Translations under genes and position numbers: made by a program
The notes under the pieces: model-generated
What the model was told of the DNA's origin: nothing
Databases searched by the model: none
The model's input: only the letters and a program-made list of their open reading frames with translations
NCBI RefSeq assembly: GCF_005576615.1
Contig: NZ_CP040330.1
Span: 2,170,001 to 2,234,000 of the forward strand
Reading direction: 5' to 3'
From: Natrinema versiforme
GTDB taxonomy: Archaea > Halobacteriota > Halobacteria > Halobacteriales > Natrialbaceae
Length of the DNA: 64,000 nucleotides
Shown: piece after piece, positions 22,881-30,451 of the stretch
Layout of the letters: the number at the start of each line of letters is the position of its first letter
Numbering within the stretch: position 1 is the stretch's first letter

Positions 22881-23822
22881 ATGCAATCGAACGAGCCATC
22901 GACGGTACCGAGGACGGAACTCGAGTCCGTCGTTCCGCCGACGATCGACGCGGAGTCGACGGTTCGGACAGCCGACGGAGTCGAGTTACACGCCGTCGTC
23001 GCCGGTGACGAAGCCGATCCGCTAGTCGTCTTGCTCCACGGCTTTCCCGAGTTCTGGTACGGCTGGCGGGCCCAGATCGCGCCGCTCGTCGAGGCCGGCT
23101 ACCGAGTGCTCGTGCCCGACCAGCGCGGGTACAATCTGAGCGAGAAGCCGAACGGCGTCCGGGCGTACCGAACCCGCGAACTGTCGGCGGACATCGCCGA
23201 CCTGATCGCGACCGAGGGACGCGAGACTGCCCACGTCGTCGGCCACGACTGGGGCGGGATGGTCGCGTGGGACCTCGCGCGCAGATATCCCGAGACGGTC
23301 GATCGGCTCGCCGTCGTCAACGCGCCCCATCCGACCGCCTATCGCCGGCAGCTCCGCTCGAACCCCGAACAGCTGCGCCGGAGCTGGTACGCGATGGGAT
23401 TTCAGCTCCCGCGGCTGCCCGAACTCGCCTGTCGGTACGACGACTACCGCCTACTCGAGCGAGCGCTTCGAGGCACGGCCGCGCCGGGGACGTTCAGCGA
23501 CGCCGATCTGGACCGTTACCGGCGCGCGTGGGATCGAGACGGGGCGCTCACGGGAATGCTCAACTGGTATCGAGCGGCCGCACGGCATCCGTCGAGTCCG
23601 CCGACGGAGCGGGTCGACGCGCCGACGCTCGTCGTCTGGGGCGAGGACGACGCGGCGCTCGTCCCCGAACTGGCGATCGACAGCACGGGATTCTGTCGGG
23701 AGAGCCGCCTCGAGTTACTCCCGGAGACGAGCCATTGGGTGCCCCACGAAGCAGCCGAGAACGTGACGGCCCTGCTTCGCGAGCACCTCGCGGAGGGAGC
23801 GGCGGTCAGTCCCGCCAGATGA
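22881..23822 (+). CDS. alpha/beta hydrolase, epoxide-hydrolase-like
   Basis: The protein has 313 residues. The oxyanion motif is LLHGFPEFWYGW, the nucleophile elbow GHDWGGMVAW carries an Asp, as in epoxide hydrolases and haloalkane dehalogenases, the acid is in WGEDDAALV and the catalytic His in ETSHWVPHEA. The combination HGFPE with Asp nucleophile favours soluble epoxide hydrolase. ATG 22881 was chosen over 22833 and 22803, as the extra residues do not resemble the family. Its last 17 nt overlap the convergent DUF2249 gene. Confidence 0.85.
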   Translation: MQSNEPSTVPRTELESVVPPTIDAESTVRTADGVELHAVVAGDEADPLVVLLHGFPEFWYGWRAQIAPLVEAGYRVLVPDQRGYNLSEKPNGVRAYRTRELSADIADLIATEGRETAHVVGHDWGGMVAWDLARRYPETVDRLAVVNAPHPTAYRRQLRSNPEQLRRSWYAMGFQLPRLPELACRYDDYRLLERALRGTAAPGTFSDADLDRYRRAWDRDGALTGMLNWYRAAARHPSSPPTERVDAPTLVVWGEDDAALVPELAIDSTGFCRESRLELLPETSHWVPHEAAENVTALLREHLAEGAAVSPAR

Positions 23823-24069
23823 CCGTCACGACTTCGTCCTCGAGTTCGGCGGTCTCGTACGCGTAGCCACGATCCTCGAGTTTCGGGTAGAGAAACTGGG
23901 GGACGCGGTCGTTGCGCTGGATCAGGACCGTCTCGTCGGGCAGCTCGACGAGTCGCTCGAGGGTCTGTTGGAGCGGGTTCGGCGGGCCGAGCGACCGCAC
24001 GTCGAGGGTCTCCTGTGGTCGATCGCTCGGTGCGTCGGTGCGGTCGACGACGGTAGTGGGTGAGGGCAT
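23806..24069 (-). CDS. DUF2249 domain protein 1
   Basis: The protein has 87 residues. After a polar 20-residue lead it has the DUF2249 core: LDVRSLGPPNPLQQTLERLVELPDETVLIQ...VPQFLYPKLEDRGYAYE...VVTVIW. The strand-helix-strand plan resembles TusA-type proteins, but there is no Cys at the position of the TusA sulfur carrier. DUF2249 proteins often lie near denitrification genes in haloarchaea; the molecular role is unknown. One of three paralogues in a row, each with its own CGAA-N4-TTCG type site; here the site (24108-24119) is the least perfect. Confidence 0.8.
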   Translation of the reverse strand: MPSPTTVVDRTDAPSDRPQETLDVRSLGPPNPLQQTLERLVELPDETVLIQRNDRVPQFLYPKLEDRGYAYETAELEDEVVTVIWRD

Positions 24070-24107
24070 ACGTGCCGGTTCGATCGCCCGATAGCTATCT
24101 TTCGTCC

Positions 24108-24119
24108 CGTACGTGTTCG
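24108..24119 (-). promoter_or_regulatory. putative regulator site upstream of DUF2249 gene 1
   Basis: CGTACGTGTTCG, a weaker copy of the CGAA-N4-TTCG repeat (left arm degenerate), 38 nt from ATG 24069, the same spacing as the other three sites in this cluster. Confidence 0.4.
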
Positions 24120-24204
24120 GCCGCGATGTGGTTCTGTGGAAACCAACGGTCGAGACGGTTCTGTGAAAACCGACGGGGTCGATACCGTCGATTGTGACGC
24201 CCCG

Positions 24205-24438
24205 CTATGCCTCTACTTTCGGGAACGTGGCGACGAACTCGTCGGGGGCGACCCGTTCGACCTCGTAGCCGTCAGCGTCGAAGCTGTCGACCTCGGCCTC
24301 GAACTCGTAGAACAGCGGCTTGGGTTCGTGGTCGTTGACGATCGTCAGCGACTCGCCCGGCTCGAGGGCGTCGAACGCGTCGTGGATTTTCGGATGGCGG
24401 TTCACCGGCGGAACGTCCCTGACATCGAGTCGCGTCAT
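24205..24438 (-). CDS. DUF2249 domain protein 2
   Basis: The protein has 77 residues, the shortest form, nearly all domain: LDVRDVPPVNRHPKIHDAFDALEPGESLTIVNDHEPKPLFYEFE, described here as residues 4-47, then a second strand pair VERVAPDEFVATF. The GESLTIVNDH strand matches the LEPGE-LLIIADD strand of TusA, again without a catalytic Cys. A perfect CGAATATGTTCG lies 40 nt upstream of ATG 24438. No good TATA box is seen, which fits activator-dependent transcription. Confidence 0.82.
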   Translation of the reverse strand: MTRLDVRDVPPVNRHPKIHDAFDALEPGESLTIVNDHEPKPLFYEFEAEVDSFDADGYEVERVAPDEFVATFPKVEA

Positions 24439-24478
24439 GCGAGTCGTACTCGGGACGAGCGATGCATCGACGTTTGCG

Positions 24479-24490
24479 CGAATATGTTCG
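24479..24490 (-). promoter_or_regulatory. CGAA-N4-TTCG site upstream of DUF2249 gene 2
   Basis: CGAATATGTTCG, perfect arms, 40 nt from ATG 24438. Identical to the site at 25751-25762. Confidence 0.65.
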
Positions 24491-24507
24491 GGTAGCGATT
24501 CGGTCGG

Positions 24508-24735
24508 TTACGCGTGTTCGATGAGTACGTGCCAGACGCCGCCGTCGCGTTCCTCGCTCTCGTAAGCGAACCCGCGGTCTTCGAGCACCTCGTAGAGCGG
24601 CTCCGGCTCGAAGGGAGCGATCAGCCGCAGTCGTTGTTCCGCCTCGAGTTTCTCGAGTGCGGCCGTGATATCGTCGAACGGCGGGCCGTCGATCTCTCTG
24701 ACGTCCAGCGTTCGTTCTGTGGATTCGGTTGCCAT
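24508..24735 (-). CDS. DUF2249 domain protein 3
   Basis: The protein has 75 residues with the same core: RTLDVREIDGPPFDDITAALEKLEAEQRLRLIAPFEPEPLYEVLEDRGFAYE (residues 8-59) and a C-terminal strand VWHVLIEH. It belongs to the same subgroup as protein 1 (EDRGFAYE against EDRGYAYE), while protein 2 is more distant. Divergent from the Bat-type regulator; 135 nt separate the two start codons and hold two CGAA-N4-TTCG sites, one at the correct distance from each gene. Confidence 0.82.
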   Translation of the reverse strand: MATESTERTLDVREIDGPPFDDITAALEKLEAEQRLRLIAPFEPEPLYEVLEDRGFAYESEERDGGVWHVLIEHA

Positions 24736-24774
24736 CGGTCTCGCGTTCGAGTCGCGACCGGTTGGTCGTTCGTC

Positions 24775-24786
24775 CGAACGTGTTCG
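24775..24786 (-). promoter_or_regulatory. CGAA-N4-TTCG site upstream of DUF2249 gene 3
   Basis: CGAACGTGTTCG, perfect arms, 39 nt from ATG 24735. Confidence 0.62.
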
Positions 24787-24820
24787 TCGCTATCGATCTT
24801 CCCGCTCGGCAGGAATTCGC

Positions 24821-24832
24821 CGAACATATTCG
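24821..24832 (+). promoter_or_regulatory. CGAA-N4-TTCG site upstream of the Bat-type regulator
   Basis: CGAACATATTCG is the exact reverse complement of the sites at 24479 and 25751. It is 38 nt from ATG 24871, with the TATA box 24843-24850 between. It suggests autoregulation. Confidence 0.65.
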
Positions 24833-24842
24833 TAACCACCGG

Positions 24843-24850
24843 CATATAGA
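24843..24850 (+). promoter_or_regulatory. TATA box of the Bat-type regulator
   Basis: CATATAGA, 21-28 nt before ATG 24871, ten bases downstream of the inverted repeat. Confidence 0.55.
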
Positions 24851-24870
24851 TTCGAGCGGAACACGTTCGT

Positions 24871-25545
24871 ATGGCTCAAGCCACACTCACTCTCACGTTG
24901 CCCGAGGAGGTCTGGATACAGCAGCTTTCGACGGACTACCCCGAGTCGACCTTCCGGGTCCTCGCGGCCGTCCCCGGCGCCGACTCCGGCTTCGCGCTCG
25001 TCCGCATCGCCGGTCCCGCCGTCCCCGAGGTGATCGAGGGCATGGAGGAGCATCCGCAACTCACCGAACTCACGCTCGCCCAGTGGAGCGACAACGAGGC
25101 GACGGTCCACTTCGAGACGACCGCCCCGCTCCTGTTGTTCTCCTCTCGAGAGTCGGGGATGCCGATCGAGCTCCCGGTCGAGATTCAGGACGGCGAGGCG
25201 ACGATCGACGTGACCGGCTCCCGGGAGCGGCTGGCCGAACTCGCCGAACAGCTCGAGCACTTCGGCCTGCAGTACCGGATCGAACACGTCCGCGAGCGAC
25301 TCCACGAGAGCCAACTGCTTTCCGAACGCCAGCTCGAGGTGATCGTCGCGGCCGTCGACGAGGGATACTACGACACCCCGCGGCGCTCGTCGCTGACCGA
25401 ACTGGCCGACCACCTCGACATCGCCAAGTCGACCTGTAGCGAGACGCTCCACCGGGCCGAGGAGGCGATCATCAAGCGGTTCGTCGAGGACCTGCCGAGC
25501 GTCGACAGCGAGGAGCCGCTCGAGGAGGAACTCGCGAGCACGTAG
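24871..25545 (+). CDS. Bat-type helix-turn-helix regulator (NarO/DmsR-like family)
   Basis: The protein has 224 residues. The C-terminal 60 residues are the HTH of the bacterio-opsin activator family: LSERQLEVIVAAVDEGYYDTPRRSS followed by LTELADHLDIAKSTCSETLHRAEEAI. The N-terminal 150 residues are two beta-rich halves without a Cys cluster; the only Cys is in the HTH, unlike NarO, whose N-terminal cysteines sense oxygen. It lies between the three DUF2249 genes and the Fe-S operon and has its own copy of the shared inverted repeat, so it is the likely regulator of the set (inference). Confidence 0.85.
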   Translation: MAQATLTLTLPEEVWIQQLSTDYPESTFRVLAAVPGADSGFALVRIAGPAVPEVIEGMEEHPQLTELTLAQWSDNEATVHFETTAPLLLFSSRESGMPIELPVEIQDGEATIDVTGSRERLAELAEQLEHFGLQYRIEHVRERLHESQLLSERQLEVIVAAVDEGYYDTPRRSSLTELADHLDIAKSTCSETLHRAEEAIIKRFVEDLPSVDSEEPLEEELAST

Positions 25546-25645
25546 ATAGGGGCACGTCGGTGTGGTGAGAGTCGAGTCTCTCGGGATCGCTCGCCGATCG
25601 AGCACGTGTCCCGTGACGGCGGGCCGTTCGATTACAACGAGTCTC

Positions 25646-25650
25646 TTTTT
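25646..25650 (+). terminator. T-run after the Bat-type regulator
   Basis: CTCTTTTTC, about 100 nt after the regulator's stop. Possible archaeal terminator. Confidence 0.3.
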
Positions 25651-25750
25651 CTCCCGACCGCGGTCCGAAAACTGAGGGGGTTCAGCCCTCCGTCGCCCGG
25701 CTCGAGCCCGGTTCGCTGTCGATCCCATCTCGCGCCCTGTCTTAAAACAG

Positions 25751-25762
25751 CGAATATGTTCG
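25751..25762 (+). promoter_or_regulatory. CGAA-N4-TTCG site upstream of the Fe-S/NrfD operon
   Basis: CGAATATGTTCG, identical to the site of DUF2249 gene 2, but 154 nt before ATG 25917. TTTTAAG just left of it could serve as a TATA box on the minus strand; no clear plus-strand TATA follows within 15 nt. Confidence 0.5.
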
Positions 25763-25916
25763 CATCGATTCTCACGCGCTGGAAATCGACTCGATACTTC
25801 ATCCGAGTACGGTTGTGAGACGGGGAACGAGGAGCAACAAATGAACGATTTGAAGTGCATGCTTTCGAGTACAACCAGCATGACACCAGCGTCATATTCA
25901 GAGGTGTTCTGATCTA

Positions 25917-27527
25917 ATGAGTACGGACGATGAATCATTCCACCCGCTCGGCGAAGAGTGGGAGGACGAACTCGAGACGATGCTCGACGATACCGAGTAC
26001 GACAGCGACCTCGGTATGGAGATGGCCCAGGACGCGATGCGGGTCACGAAGGGCGAACTCTCCGAGTCCGAATTCCACGAGCGCTATCACGAGGACGTGA
26101 TGGAGGAGTTCGGCGAGGACGAACGCCCGACCAAGGAAGCCTACGAGGCGGCACAGGAGGAGGCGAAAGGAACCGCCTCCAACATGCTCGATGCCTTCGA
26201 CGGCGACGGCGGCGAGACCCGCCGCGAGACGATGAAGAAGATGGGCGTCGGCGCGGCGGCCGTCGGAGTGGGTGCCTTCGGTGCCACCCACGACCCACCC
26301 GAACAGAGCCTCAGCGCCGCTGAAGGCGGCCACTCGGAGACCACCGAACACAGCGACACCCAGTGGGGGATGACGATCGACCTCGAACGCTGTGACGGCT
26401 GTCTCTCCTGTATGACTGCCTGTACCCAGGAAAACAGCCTCGATCAGGGGGTCAACTGGATGTACGTCATGGCATTCGAGGACGAACTCACGTCTTCTTC
26501 GTCCCCGCAACCCGACGTAGTCGGTGGCAAATCCGACTTCAACATGCTCGTGCGACCGTGCCAGCACTGTACGGACGCTCCCTGTGAGAAGGTCTGTCCG
26601 ACGACGGCCCGTCACACCCGCGACAAGGACGGCCTCGTCCTGACCGACTACGACGTCTGTATCGGCTGCCGGTACTGTCAGGTCGCCTGTCCCTACGGGG
26701 TCAACTACTTCCAGTGGGACGAGCCCGATACGGACTACAGCGAACTCGACGAGAGTCACACGATGGGCGAGTACGAGCACGGCGAGCGCTGGGTCGACAG
26801 CCGTGCGCCCCGCGGAACGATGAGCAAGTGTACGATGTGTCCGTCCCACCAGGACGGGAAACGGGGCGACGAAAAGGTCGGTACGTCCGCGTGTGAGGAG
26901 GTCTGCCCGCCCAACGCGATCCAGTTCGGGAACGTCAAGGACGAAAAGAGCGATCCCTCCCAGCACCGCGAGCACCCGATCAAGAGCCGGGCCGTCATCG
27001 ACGTCGAACGCGACGTGCCCTCGCCCGACACGCTCGACGAGAACCTCAGCGAGGACGACGACCTCGCGTCCGCGACCGAGGCCGTCGAGGACCTCACCAC
27101 CGAACTCGTCAGCATCATGAAGGCGATCGAGATCGTCAGTCGGGACACCGAGACCGATCCGGGCGAGGAGGAGAACAATACGATCCTCCAGAAACAGGAG
27201 ACGATCCTCGAGGTGCTCGAGACGCTCGAAAGCTACGTCGACCTCGAGAGCGAGGACGTCCTCGCCGAACTACAGCTCGGCTCGGGCGAATCCGACGACG
27301 CGATGGTCCGACTCCAGCAGTTCGCCGGCAACCCCAGCGCGAAGTTCAAGCTGCTCGAGGACATCGGGACGAACCCGAACATCACCTACCTCGGTCAGGA
27401 ACCCGGACCGGAGGCCGAACAGGTCGAGGGGCCGACCAAGTACGAGGACGTAGGAGACCTCGTCGACAAGCGACAAGACATCCTCGACGAAGGGACCGTC
27501 GGCCGCGTTGACGGGGTGTCGTTATGA
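25917..27527 (+). CDS. four-cluster [4Fe-4S] electron-transfer subunit (PsrB/NrfC/DmsB type)
   Basis: The protein has 536 residues, about twice the family norm. Four Cys groups give four clusters: C159/162/165/169, C215/218/223/227, C248/251/254/258 and C305/308/326/330. Residues 1-100 are an acidic helical extension, then an RR-containing hydrophobic segment TRRETMKKMGVGAAAVGVGA (101-120) that looks like an internal Tat signal. Residues 350-510 are an added helical region. It should carry electrons between an NrfD quinone subunit and a partner. It overlaps the next gene by 4 nt. No molybdopterin catalytic gene is adjacent. Confidence 0.88.
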   Translation: MSTDDESFHPLGEEWEDELETMLDDTEYDSDLGMEMAQDAMRVTKGELSESEFHERYHEDVMEEFGEDERPTKEAYEAAQEEAKGTASNMLDAFDGDGGETRRETMKKMGVGAAAVGVGAFGATHDPPEQSLSAAEGGHSETTEHSDTQWGMTIDLERCDGCLSCMTACTQENSLDQGVNWMYVMAFEDELTSSSSPQPDVVGGKSDFNMLVRPCQHCTDAPCEKVCPTTARHTRDKDGLVLTDYDVCIGCRYCQVACPYGVNYFQWDEPDTDYSELDESHTMGEYEHGERWVDSRAPRGTMSKCTMCPSHQDGKRGDEKVGTSACEEVCPPNAIQFGNVKDEKSDPSQHREHPIKSRAVIDVERDVPSPDTLDENLSEDDDLASATEAVEDLTTELVSIMKAIEIVSRDTETDPGEEENNTILQKQETILEVLETLESYVDLESEDVLAELQLGSGESDDAMVRLQQFAGNPSAKFKLLEDIGTNPNITYLGQEPGPEAEQVEGPTKYEDVGDLVDKRQDILDEGTVGRVDGVSL

Positions 27528-28912
27528 GCACGAAGATGCCGTCCGAGGAGGACATCCTCCGGCCGATCAACACGCTCACGACGAAGTACTTCATCATGTA
27601 CGGCGCTGCGGCCCTCGGCCTCGTGGCCTTCCTCGTGGCCTGGGCCTACCAGCTCCAGCAAGGGCTGATCGTCACCGGCCTCGGCGACTGGGGCTCCGGT
27701 GGCGGTTCGACCTGGGGGCTGTACATCGGCGCGTTCATCTGGTGGGTCGGCGTCGCCCACGGCGGCATCATCCTCTCGGCCGCCGTCCGCCTGCTCGGCA
27801 TGGATCGGTACCTGCCGATCGCCCGTATCGCGGAGATGACGACGATCGGCGGCCTCTCGGCCGCCGGCTTCTACATCCTGGTCCACATGGGCCGGCCAGA
27901 CCGGATGGTCACGAGCGTCATCGGTCACTACCACATCACGGTCAACAACTCGCCGCTGGTATGGGACGTGACGGTCATTACGGCCTACTTCGTGCTGTCG
28001 GCGACCTACCTCGGCCTGACGCTGCGCTACGACGTCGCTCGGCTGCGCGATCAGCTCCCGTCGTACGCCCCGAAGATCGGTAGCTTTCAGCTTCCGGACC
28101 TCTACGGGCTGATCTACGGCACGCTGACGATCGGCTACACCAAGAAGGAAGACAAGATCATCGATCGGATGGTCTGGTGGCTCGCGGCCGCGGTCATCAT
28201 CATGGCACCGCTCCTGCTCCACGGCGGCGTGATTCCGTGGCTGTTCTCGGTGCTCCCGGCGATGCCCGCGTGGACCGGCGCGATTCAGGGACCGATGTTC
28301 CTGAGCATCGCGCTGATGTCGGCGATCAGCGGCGTGATTATCATCTCCTACGCCTTCCGTCGCGCCTACGGATGGGATCACATCATCACCGACGACATCT
28401 TCCGCGGGCTGCTCCTGTGGCTCGGGTTCTTCTCCCTGCTGTTCCTCTGGTTCCAGCTCCAAACGATCCTCAACGGTTCGTTCCTCGGACCGCTCGACCA
28501 GGCACACGCGACCGAAGCGAAGATCTCCAACCCCATCTACCGCGTCGCGATGGGGATGGTGTTCGCCACGCTCGTGTACATCTTCGTGCAGGGAATCCGC
28601 CCGGCGCTGTTCAGCAAGAAGCGGGCGCTCATCGCCAGCGTTGCGGTCCTCACCGCGACGCTGACCGAGAAGGTCCTGTTCGTCGTCGAGGGGTTCATGG
28701 ACCCGCACTTCAACATCTACGAAGCGGTTCCCGGGGAGTACTTCCCGAGCGCGATCGAGTGGCTGTCGCTCGTCGGCACGGCCGCCTTGGTTGCACTTTT
28801 ATTCCTCAATCTCTCGAAGCTCGTTCCGGTGGTCGAACTCCACGCGGTCGAACACCTGCGCGGCGACCACGAGCACAGTGAGGAAGCGACCGAACCCGAG
28901 GTGGAAGCATGA
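27524..28912 (+). CDS. NrfD/PsrC-type quinone-reactive membrane subunit
   Basis: The protein has 462 residues with about ten hydrophobic helices. Typical features are the GGSTWGLYIGAFIWWVGVAHGGIILSAAVRLL block (residues about 61-92) and VHMGRPDR. NrfD proteins bind (mena)quinol in the membrane and pass electrons to the four-cluster Fe-S partner, here encoded just upstream with an ATGA overlap. Loops near residues 196-217 (KEDKIIDRMVWW) are charged. It ends with an acidic tail and overlaps the next gene by 4 nt. Confidence 0.9.
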   Translation: MSTKMPSEEDILRPINTLTTKYFIMYGAAALGLVAFLVAWAYQLQQGLIVTGLGDWGSGGGSTWGLYIGAFIWWVGVAHGGIILSAAVRLLGMDRYLPIARIAEMTTIGGLSAAGFYILVHMGRPDRMVTSVIGHYHITVNNSPLVWDVTVITAYFVLSATYLGLTLRYDVARLRDQLPSYAPKIGSFQLPDLYGLIYGTLTIGYTKKEDKIIDRMVWWLAAAVIIMAPLLLHGGVIPWLFSVLPAMPAWTGAIQGPMFLSIALMSAISGVIIISYAFRRAYGWDHIITDDIFRGLLLWLGFFSLLFLWFQLQTILNGSFLGPLDQAHATEAKISNPIYRVAMGMVFATLVYIFVQGIRPALFSKKRALIASVAVLTATLTEKVLFVVEGFMDPHFNIYEAVPGEYFPSAIEWLSLVGTAALVALLFLNLSKLVPVVELHAVEHLRGDHEHSEEATEPEVEA

Positions 28913-29220
28913 ACTCAGCACTGACAACGATCCCGGCGGAACTCCTGTACCACGGTTACGACGGTACTGCCGGCTTCACCGGCTTCGCCAACGAGGGGAC
29001 CTACATCATCTTCGCCGTCATCCTGGTCCCGGTCTACATCATGCTCGCGGCGTGGTTCCTCGGCGAACCCCGCGACACGAAGACCGGACTGACCGGCGTG
29101 AGCTACCTCGTCGGCCTCACGACGTCGATGTGGGTCGGTATGTTCGTTCTGACCGTCCTGATCGGCATCGTGTTCTACGGCGGCCCGCCGGAACCGTTCA
29201 GCAGCGTCGGTCCGCCGTAA
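28909..29220 (+). CDS. small membrane protein of the Fe-S/NrfD operon
   Basis: The protein has 103 residues with two clear hydrophobic helices (about residues 30-53 and 66-92) and an N-terminal Gly/Tyr-rich lead. It overlaps the NrfD gene by ATGA, so it is made with it and probably is a small subunit of the complex. No family is recognised. Confidence 0.72.
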   Translation: MNSALTTIPAELLYHGYDGTAGFTGFANEGTYIIFAVILVPVYIMLAAWFLGEPRDTKTGLTGVSYLVGLTTSMWVGMFVLTVLIGIVFYGGPPEPFSSVGPP

Positions 29221-29359: not shown

Positions 29360-30451
29360 ATGAGTATCACAGAACACGAACTCGAAATCAAACTCGAGGC
29401 AGTCGAAGACCCGGACCTCGGCGAGGACATCATCTCGCTGGGACTGGTCAACGACCTCACGATCGACGACGAGACGGCCCGGATCTCGGTCGCGTTTAAC
29501 GCGCCGTATGCCCCCTCCGAACTGGAACTGGGCAACCGGATCCGTGATGTCGTCGAAGAGGCGGGTCTCGAGGCCGACCTGCGAGCGCACGTCGGCGAGG
29601 ACCACGGCTTCGACGAGGAGGTACTCCCGCAGGTTCGCAACGTCATCGCCGTCTCCTCCGGGAAGGGTGGCGTCGGCAAAACGACGGTTGCGGCCAACCT
29701 CGCGGCCGGACTCGAGAAACGCGGCGCGATGGTCGGCCTGCTCGACGCCGACATCCACGGGCCGAACGTGCCCCAGATCCTGCCGCCCGAGAGCGATCCG
29801 GGCGTGACGCCGAACGAGGAGATCGTGCCGCCCCGCTCGGACGGCGTCCGTCTCATCAGCATGGGGATGATGATGGAAGACGACGACGATCCCGCCATCC
29901 TCCGGGGTCCGATGGTCAACAAGTTCATGGTGAAGTTCCTCGAGGGCGTCGAGTGGGGTCGACTTGACTACCTCATCGTCGACCTGCCGCCGGGAACTGG
30001 CGACGCGACGCTGAACCTGCTCCAGTCGATGCCGGTGACCGGATCGGTCGTCGTCACGACGCCACAGGAGATGGCGCTCGACGACACCCGAAAGGGAATC
30101 CAGATGTTCAACAAACACGACACGCCGGTGCTGGGCGTCGTCGAGAACATGAGCTCCTTCATCTGCCCGTCCTGTGGCGACCAGCACGGGCTGTTCGGAA
30201 CCGGCGGCGCGGACACCATCGTCGACAAGTACGATGTCCCGCTGCTCGGGCGCATCCCGATCCACCCCGACTTCGGTGCCGACGGCAGCGAAGGGGCGCT
30301 CGTCAAGGACGACGACAGCGAAGTCCAAGGTCACCTCGAGGACGTCGTCGGCGAAGTCGCCGACCGGATCGGCGAGCAGAACCGCCGCAAAGTCTCGGAG
30401 AACGTCACGTACGAACCGCAGAACAAGCTGCCGACCGAGACCGAGGACTGA
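29360..30451 (+). CDS. Mrp/ApbC-type P-loop iron-sulfur carrier
   Basis: The protein has 363 residues. Residues 1-85 form an MIP18/DUF59 domain; then the deviant Walker A VSSGKGGVGKTT (about 97-108), GLLDADIHGPNVP, the DLPPGTGDATL motif, and the cluster-binding CPSC in MSSFICPSCGDQ. These proteins hold and deliver [4Fe-4S] clusters. It lies 140 nt after the Fe-S/NrfD operon, so a role in loading its four-cluster subunit is reasonable, but such carriers also serve other targets. Confidence 0.92.
   Translation: MSITEHELEIKLEAVEDPDLGEDIISLGLVNDLTIDDETARISVAFNAPYAPSELELGNRIRDVVEEAGLEADLRAHVGEDHGFDEEVLPQVRNVIAVSSGKGGVGKTTVAANLAAGLEKRGAMVGLLDADIHGPNVPQILPPESDPGVTPNEEIVPPRSDGVRLISMGMMMEDDDDPAILRGPMVNKFMVKFLEGVEWGRLDYLIVDLPPGTGDATLNLLQSMPVTGSVVVTTPQEMALDDTRKGIQMFNKHDTPVLGVVENMSSFICPSCGDQHGLFGTGGADTIVDKYDVPLLGRIPIHPDFGADGSEGALVKDDDSEVQGHLEDVVGEVADRIGEQNRRKVSENVTYEPQNKLPTETED

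Follow-up and report, generated by a model that had tools for sequence, protein, structure and literature searches.

An Fe-S/NrfD operon of haloarchaea as a candidate menaquinol:halocyanin oxidoreductase in genomes lacking cytochrome b

Quinol dehydrogenases built from an Fe-S protein and an NrfD-type membrane subunit are known in several settings. In the dimeric modules NrfCD, PsrBC, QrcCD and DsrOP such a pair is adjoined by a catalytic or haem partner, while in the Psr, Dms and Ttr complexes a molybdopterin catalytic subunit is co-encoded; the Fe-S/NrfD pair has also been described as able to act alone, passing electrons to soluble periplasmic proteins. Alternative complex III (ActABCDEF) contains, besides the NrfD-like ActC, the Fe-S protein ActB with a fused, cofactor-less Mo-like domain, the multihaem ActA, the monohaem ActE, ActD and ActF, and delivers electrons to HiPIP (R. 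marinus) or to the blue-copper protein auracyanin (Chloroflexus). In haloarchaea, Natrialba magadii, Haloterrigena turkmenica and Natronomonas pharaonis have been reported to lack the bc1 complex, and the transfer from quinol to halocyanin was called unresolved (PMC3403918, 2012). A 2021 review (PMC8305020) put the share of haloarchaea without complex III at about one third and again called the electron route to halocyanin unresolved. The module described here is a variant of the known Fe-S/NrfD kind and bears on this published question of haloarchaeal respiration; among open-licence papers we found no earlier claim that it replaces complex III.

The window, i.e. the whole analysed stretch of 64,000 nucleotides from Natrinema versiforme, contains all elements named in an earlier note on this DNA: three DUF2249 genes, a regulator, an overlapping operon for Fe-S, NrfD and small membrane proteins, and a shared palindrome. 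The DUF2249 genes a (23806-24069, 87 aa, Pfam PF10006 E=1e-13), b (24205-24438, 77 aa, E=3.8e-24) and c (24508-24735, 75 aa, E=1.4e-18), all three above the Pfam cut-off, are on the reverse strand. The forward strand carries the gene for an HTH_10 (bacterio-opsin-activator-like) regulator of 224 aa (24871-25545, PF04967 E=4.6e-18), followed by the operon. Its first gene (25917-27527) encodes an Fe-S subunit with a Ferredoxin_N domain, the twin-arginine motif RRETMKKMG, four [4Fe-4S] sites and a C-terminal tail, the second (27524-28912, PF03916 E=2.9e-21) an NrfD/ActC-like quinol-binding membrane subunit, and the third (28909-29220) a small membrane subunit with two predicted transmembrane helices. 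The fourth gene (29360-30451) encodes an Mrp/NBP35-type Fe-S carrier NTPase (PF10609 E=6.6e-89 plus PF01883). Among 40 module loci, picked to span clades and not as a random sample, the small subunit gene is behind NrfD in 40, and the Mrp gene was detected within 2.4 kb of NrfD in 36. The Fe-S/NrfD and NrfD/small-subunit junctions are 4-nt ATGA overlaps, which supports the proposal that the three proteins form one complex, and the 16 cluster cysteines of the Fe-S subunit, arranged in four motifs, agree with the four clusters noted before. The description of the module as free of a catalytic subunit also holds: no molybdopterin or haem gene lies beside it in the window, and a Mo gene is present in only 3 of the 40 loci, which sets it apart from the Psr, Dms and Ttr complexes and from the partnered dimeric modules.

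The shared site CGAAYATRTTCG occurs in the window at 24479, 24821 and 25751, three matches against a chance expectation of 0.01. The palindrome CGAATATGTTCG at 24479-24490 (forward strand, as are the other two) is located upstream of DUF2249 b and is an exact match to the published denitrification motif. The palindrome CGAACATATTCG at 24821-24832 lies between the divergent DUF2249 c and regulator genes, 50 bp 5' of the regulator start, and a further CGAATATGTTCG at 25751-25762 lies 166 bp 5' of the Fe-S gene, with the same spacing in many relatives. All three match CGAAYATDKTYG, the motif published for denitrification genes of Haloferax mediterranei. That regulon, controlled by NarO/DmsR-type regulators, resembles the window locus in its motif, in the HTH_10 class of a bacterio-opsin-activator-like regulator and in its DUF2249 proteins, as far as the relevant passages of the published work go; those passages do not deal with the Fe-S/NrfD module. 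The earlier proposal that a regulatory site ties the module to DUF2249 genes and denitrification is thus upheld, and the window copy is, judging by these sites, predicted to be controlled by a denitrification/low-oxygen-type HTH_10 regulator. Just one more perfect palindrome of the CGAAYATRTTCG type was found in the window genome (L130 6148-8270, G000:C3), flanked on one side by the gene of a second HTH_10 regulator and on the other by that of a membrane-type protein of 451 aa that weakly resembles ccoN/COX1.

Conservation of the five-part neighborhood, which the same note proposed to check, was found for some of the parts, and the refuting condition named there, a neighborhood that is not conserved, does not hold for the core. 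Regulator and module occur together in 29 of the 29 genomes of the genus, a copy of the palindrome in 28 and the nearest DUF2249 gene in 22, these genomes being related and not independent events. In several other families the core consists of the Fe-S, NrfD, small-subunit and Mrp genes, while the regulator and DUF2249 genes are variable; in Natronomonas, Halovenus and genus g34 of family f1 the core is found without both. The Mrp/NBP35 gene is therefore part of the operon that is conserved. The DUF2249 genes lie outside its core, which does not need them because they are absent at many module loci. In the low-GC locus L049 genes were taken as the longest ORFs. Elsewhere we observed single ORFs of about 370-425 aa with at least three tandem DUF2249 domains (e.g. 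G011:C2:647406-648134, with similar ones in G007, G008, G010, G025, G026 and G027), and in two module loci (L038 13487-14965 and L129 3827-5254) a gene for a UbiA-CtaA (haem O/A synthase) fusion located beside nirK or DUF2249 genes.

Both sequence and fold relate the NrfD subunit to alternative complex III. Its four PDB sequence matches and its four best Foldseek matches are all ActC (TM about 0.77-0.79; mean pLDDT of the predicted model 79), and the ActC quinone-site residues His139, Ser164 and Asp169 (PMC8076601) have as aligned counterparts H121, S143 and D148, none of which varies among the 54 module NrfD sequences. The position of ActC Asp253 is taken by an invariant Leu. The features of the NrfD/PsrC family are present, namely an NrfD-type subunit with a quinone-site Ser and acidic/His residues and an adjacent four-cluster Fe-S subunit, and the NCBIfam models for DsrO/DsrP and QrcC match the module far below their cut-offs. 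The Fe-S protein aligns only with the C-terminal Fe-S part of ActB, its own N-terminus being the Ferredoxin_N domain; the predicted model of this subunit was poor (mean pLDDT 59.6) and was left out of our conclusions, and the alignments used for structure prediction exclude rows from plasmid records. At the third cluster the module protein has CIGCRYC where ActB has CIGTRYC, and since the cysteine is kept, four [4Fe-4S] clusters are expected, in contrast to ActB with its one [3Fe-4S]. The module Fe-S subunit also lacks the Mo-like domain, and in the surveyed loci the operon contains no ActA, ActD or ActE and no linked second NrfD (ActF), whereas the Ferredoxin_N domain and the small subunit are extras with respect to alternative complex III.

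All 32 of the module Fe-S proteins that were aligned have the twin arginines R102-R103, and the motif is absent from the three checked relatives encoded beside a molybdopterin subunit. This pattern suggests that the module protein carries its own export signal, while the Mo-partnered relatives may be exported with the Mo subunit. We infer that the motif acts as a signal although it is internal, behind a domain of 100 residues.

To relate the module to complex III, we looked for matches to the NrfD protein (E <= 1e-60) and to the Pfam model of cytochrome b (PF00033) in 391 genomes sampled across the class. Module only was found in 96 genomes, both in 36, cytochrome b only in 256 and neither in 3, counts that depend on the thresholds, the Pfam model and uneven sampling; NrfD of the module is thus present in 96 of the 99 genomes without cytochrome b. 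At the level of genera, the module is present in 22 of 22 that wholly lack cytochrome b, versus 16 of 64 that keep it. Fisher's exact test gives p = 1.6e-56 for genomes and 1.3e-10 for genera, neither phylogeny-corrected, and many counts come from one large clade, so that cytochrome b may have been lost independently only about five times. The distribution is nearly complementary to that of the cytochrome bc complex III (petABD in haloarchaea), and the role, menaquinol to halocyanin, would be alike, whereas the module has no haem, no Rieske protein and an unrelated fold.

Complementarity extends into a single genus: Natronomonas is split into six genomes with the module only, four with cytochrome b only and one with both. 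In the gene tree the NrfD of the sampled "both" Natronomonas belongs to a distinct clade whose seven members all stem from cytochrome-b-positive genomes, some of them with denitrification-type neighbors, while the NrfD proteins of Natronomonas, Halovenus and families f13 and f10 form a group of twelve, all from cytochrome-b-less genomes. Two of the genomes that have neither, G062 and G131, gave no match for COX1, i.e. no haem-copper oxidase; the third, G384, is a draft in 150 contigs, cytochrome b being present in its five sampled congeners. G045 is an exception of another sort, with the module and a halocyanin neighbor, yet without COX1 and cytochrome b, so that in this genome the module must serve a different purpose.

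Near COX1, the window genome (three) and its cytochrome-b-less relatives G035, G081, G152, G321 and G044 encode subunit II proteins in which the CuA motif CxxxCxxxHxxM is complete. CuA oxidases accept electrons from one-electron carriers, so that a quinol:carrier step is required in cytochrome-b-less genomes. Candidate carriers are at hand: the window genome has seven Copper-bind (halocyanin-type) matches, 10 of the 40 module loci have a halocyanin gene no more than 3 kb from NrfD and one more has a cupredoxin-like protein, and in Halostagnicola larsenii (one locus) a HiPIP gene is just upstream of the module, which parallels the acceptors of alternative complex III. No halocyanin gene directly adjoins the module in the window's genus. 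Among the f9 genomes, the Fe-S subunit lacks the first cluster motif in L072 and L122, and in L122 a di-haem CCP/MauG protein beside the module hints at a cytochrome c acceptor.

Taking together gene content, distribution, conserved residues, fold and regulatory sites, we consider it rather probable that the product of the operon is a menaquinol:halocyanin (or HiPIP) oxidoreductase that contains neither Mo nor haem and stands in for complex III. In this enzyme NrfD would bind menaquinol near the outer membrane face, and the Fe-S subunit would be exported via its own twin-arginine signal. Electrons would pass through the four [4Fe-4S] clusters and singly to a lipid-anchored halocyanin, the putative acceptor, and from there to CuA terminal oxidases and, where present, also to denitrification enzymes such as NirK; loading of the Fe-S clusters would fall to the Mrp/NBP35 protein. 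The earlier suggestion that menaquinol electrons are fed to a partner encoded elsewhere keeps its quinol-oxidising direction and its distant partner, while the partner itself is re-read as a blue-copper carrier in a complex III role rather than the missing reductase of an orphan anchor, because the distribution is complementary to that of cytochrome b, halocyanin or HiPIP genes are adjacent and ActC is the closest relative. By comparison with the NrfCD-like pairs and their dedicated partners, the acceptor would be a general blue-copper carrier. The broader claim, to which we give an even chance, is that this is a third kind of complex III, consisting solely of an Fe-S protein and an ActC-like, possibly proton-translocating subunit, with no haem, Rieske centre or Mo-like domain, and that it took the place of cytochrome bc on several occasions among haloarchaea. 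Named genes are now available for the published gap in nearly every sampled complex-III-less genome, which makes the question directly testable. If true, the proposal would show the form of a minimal quinol:cupredoxin oxidoreductase and suggest a route by which alternative complex III could have been built up from its quinol core or stripped down to it.

The regulatory sites invite a narrower role, in which menaquinol is oxidised solely for halocyanin-fed NirK (and Nor/Nos) within the DUF2249/HTH_10 regulon. Apart from the palindrome, it draws on the clustering of nirK, DUF2249 genes and the module in Halomontanus, G006, G032 and G141 (all but G032 with halocyanin also near), and on NrfD clade I, confined in the sampled tree to cytochrome-b-positive genomes. 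We regard it as unlikely and reject NirK as the sole beneficiary, for nirK is missing from 10 of the 29 genus genomes that carry the module, many nirK genomes of other families lack the module, and the link to the absence of cytochrome b is left unexplained. Because of these ten genomes, and because Natronomonas, Halovenus, genus g34 and others have no DUF2249 gene or regulator at the module, its tie to denitrification is secondary.

Alternatively, the terminal oxidases could be fed directly by menaquinol, as proposed for complex-III-less natronoarchaea (PMC6176080), complex III being unneeded and the module unrelated. The distribution of the module would then be a coincidence, and both the CuA-type subunit II proteins of the cytochrome-b-less genomes and the seven halocyanin-type matches of the window genome speak against this solution, which seems quite unlikely to us. 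It is also quite unlikely, in our opinion, that the module is above all a quinol anchor for a distant molybdoenzyme, e.g. the type II nitrate/perchlorate-like reductase encoded at a distance of about 75-80 kb, although the nar cluster region of the window genome has no Rieske motif or cytochrome b, NarH lies near the module in G280, and G050 has consecutive genes for a type II Mo enzyme, TorD, Fe-S, NrfD, small subunit and Mrp, and therefore the module can also serve a Mo enzyme. The rarity of Mo genes in the module loci, the twin-arginine motif, unlike in the checked Mo-partnered relatives, and the way the module tracks the absence of cytochrome b all argue against such an anchor.

The proposed menaquinol:halocyanin oxidoreductase has paralogs. 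Most cytochrome-b-less genomes of the family have additional, unlinked genes for an NrfD (70% identical) and an Fe-S protein (57%), and these lack the palindrome; in the window genome these are NrfD2 (G000:C2:190638) and Fe-S2 (G000:C2:1826048), unlinked to each other and to the window copy. In Natrinema the Fe-S2/NrfD2 pair may be constitutive, with a housekeeping role, and the window copy induced, and it could be the split pair that truly substitutes for complex III there. The only copy in G035 and in most of g34 is one syntenic with the window, so that a genome can have the window type alone. Nearly every cytochrome-b-less genome of the family has kept Fe-S2/NrfD2. The type II molybdoenzyme cluster of the window genome (L063, G000:C2:2270000-2289999) encodes a Mo subunit, an Fe-S subunit, TorD, an ethylbenzene-dehydrogenase-type cytochrome b, a HEAT protein and an Mrp-DUF2249 fusion, and no NarB/NarC-like genes were seen in it. 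We also found a second, more distant type of NrfD (about 43-45% identical), accompanied by a Mo subunit in L079 (8528-13493) and apparently without one in L053 (7380-9961).
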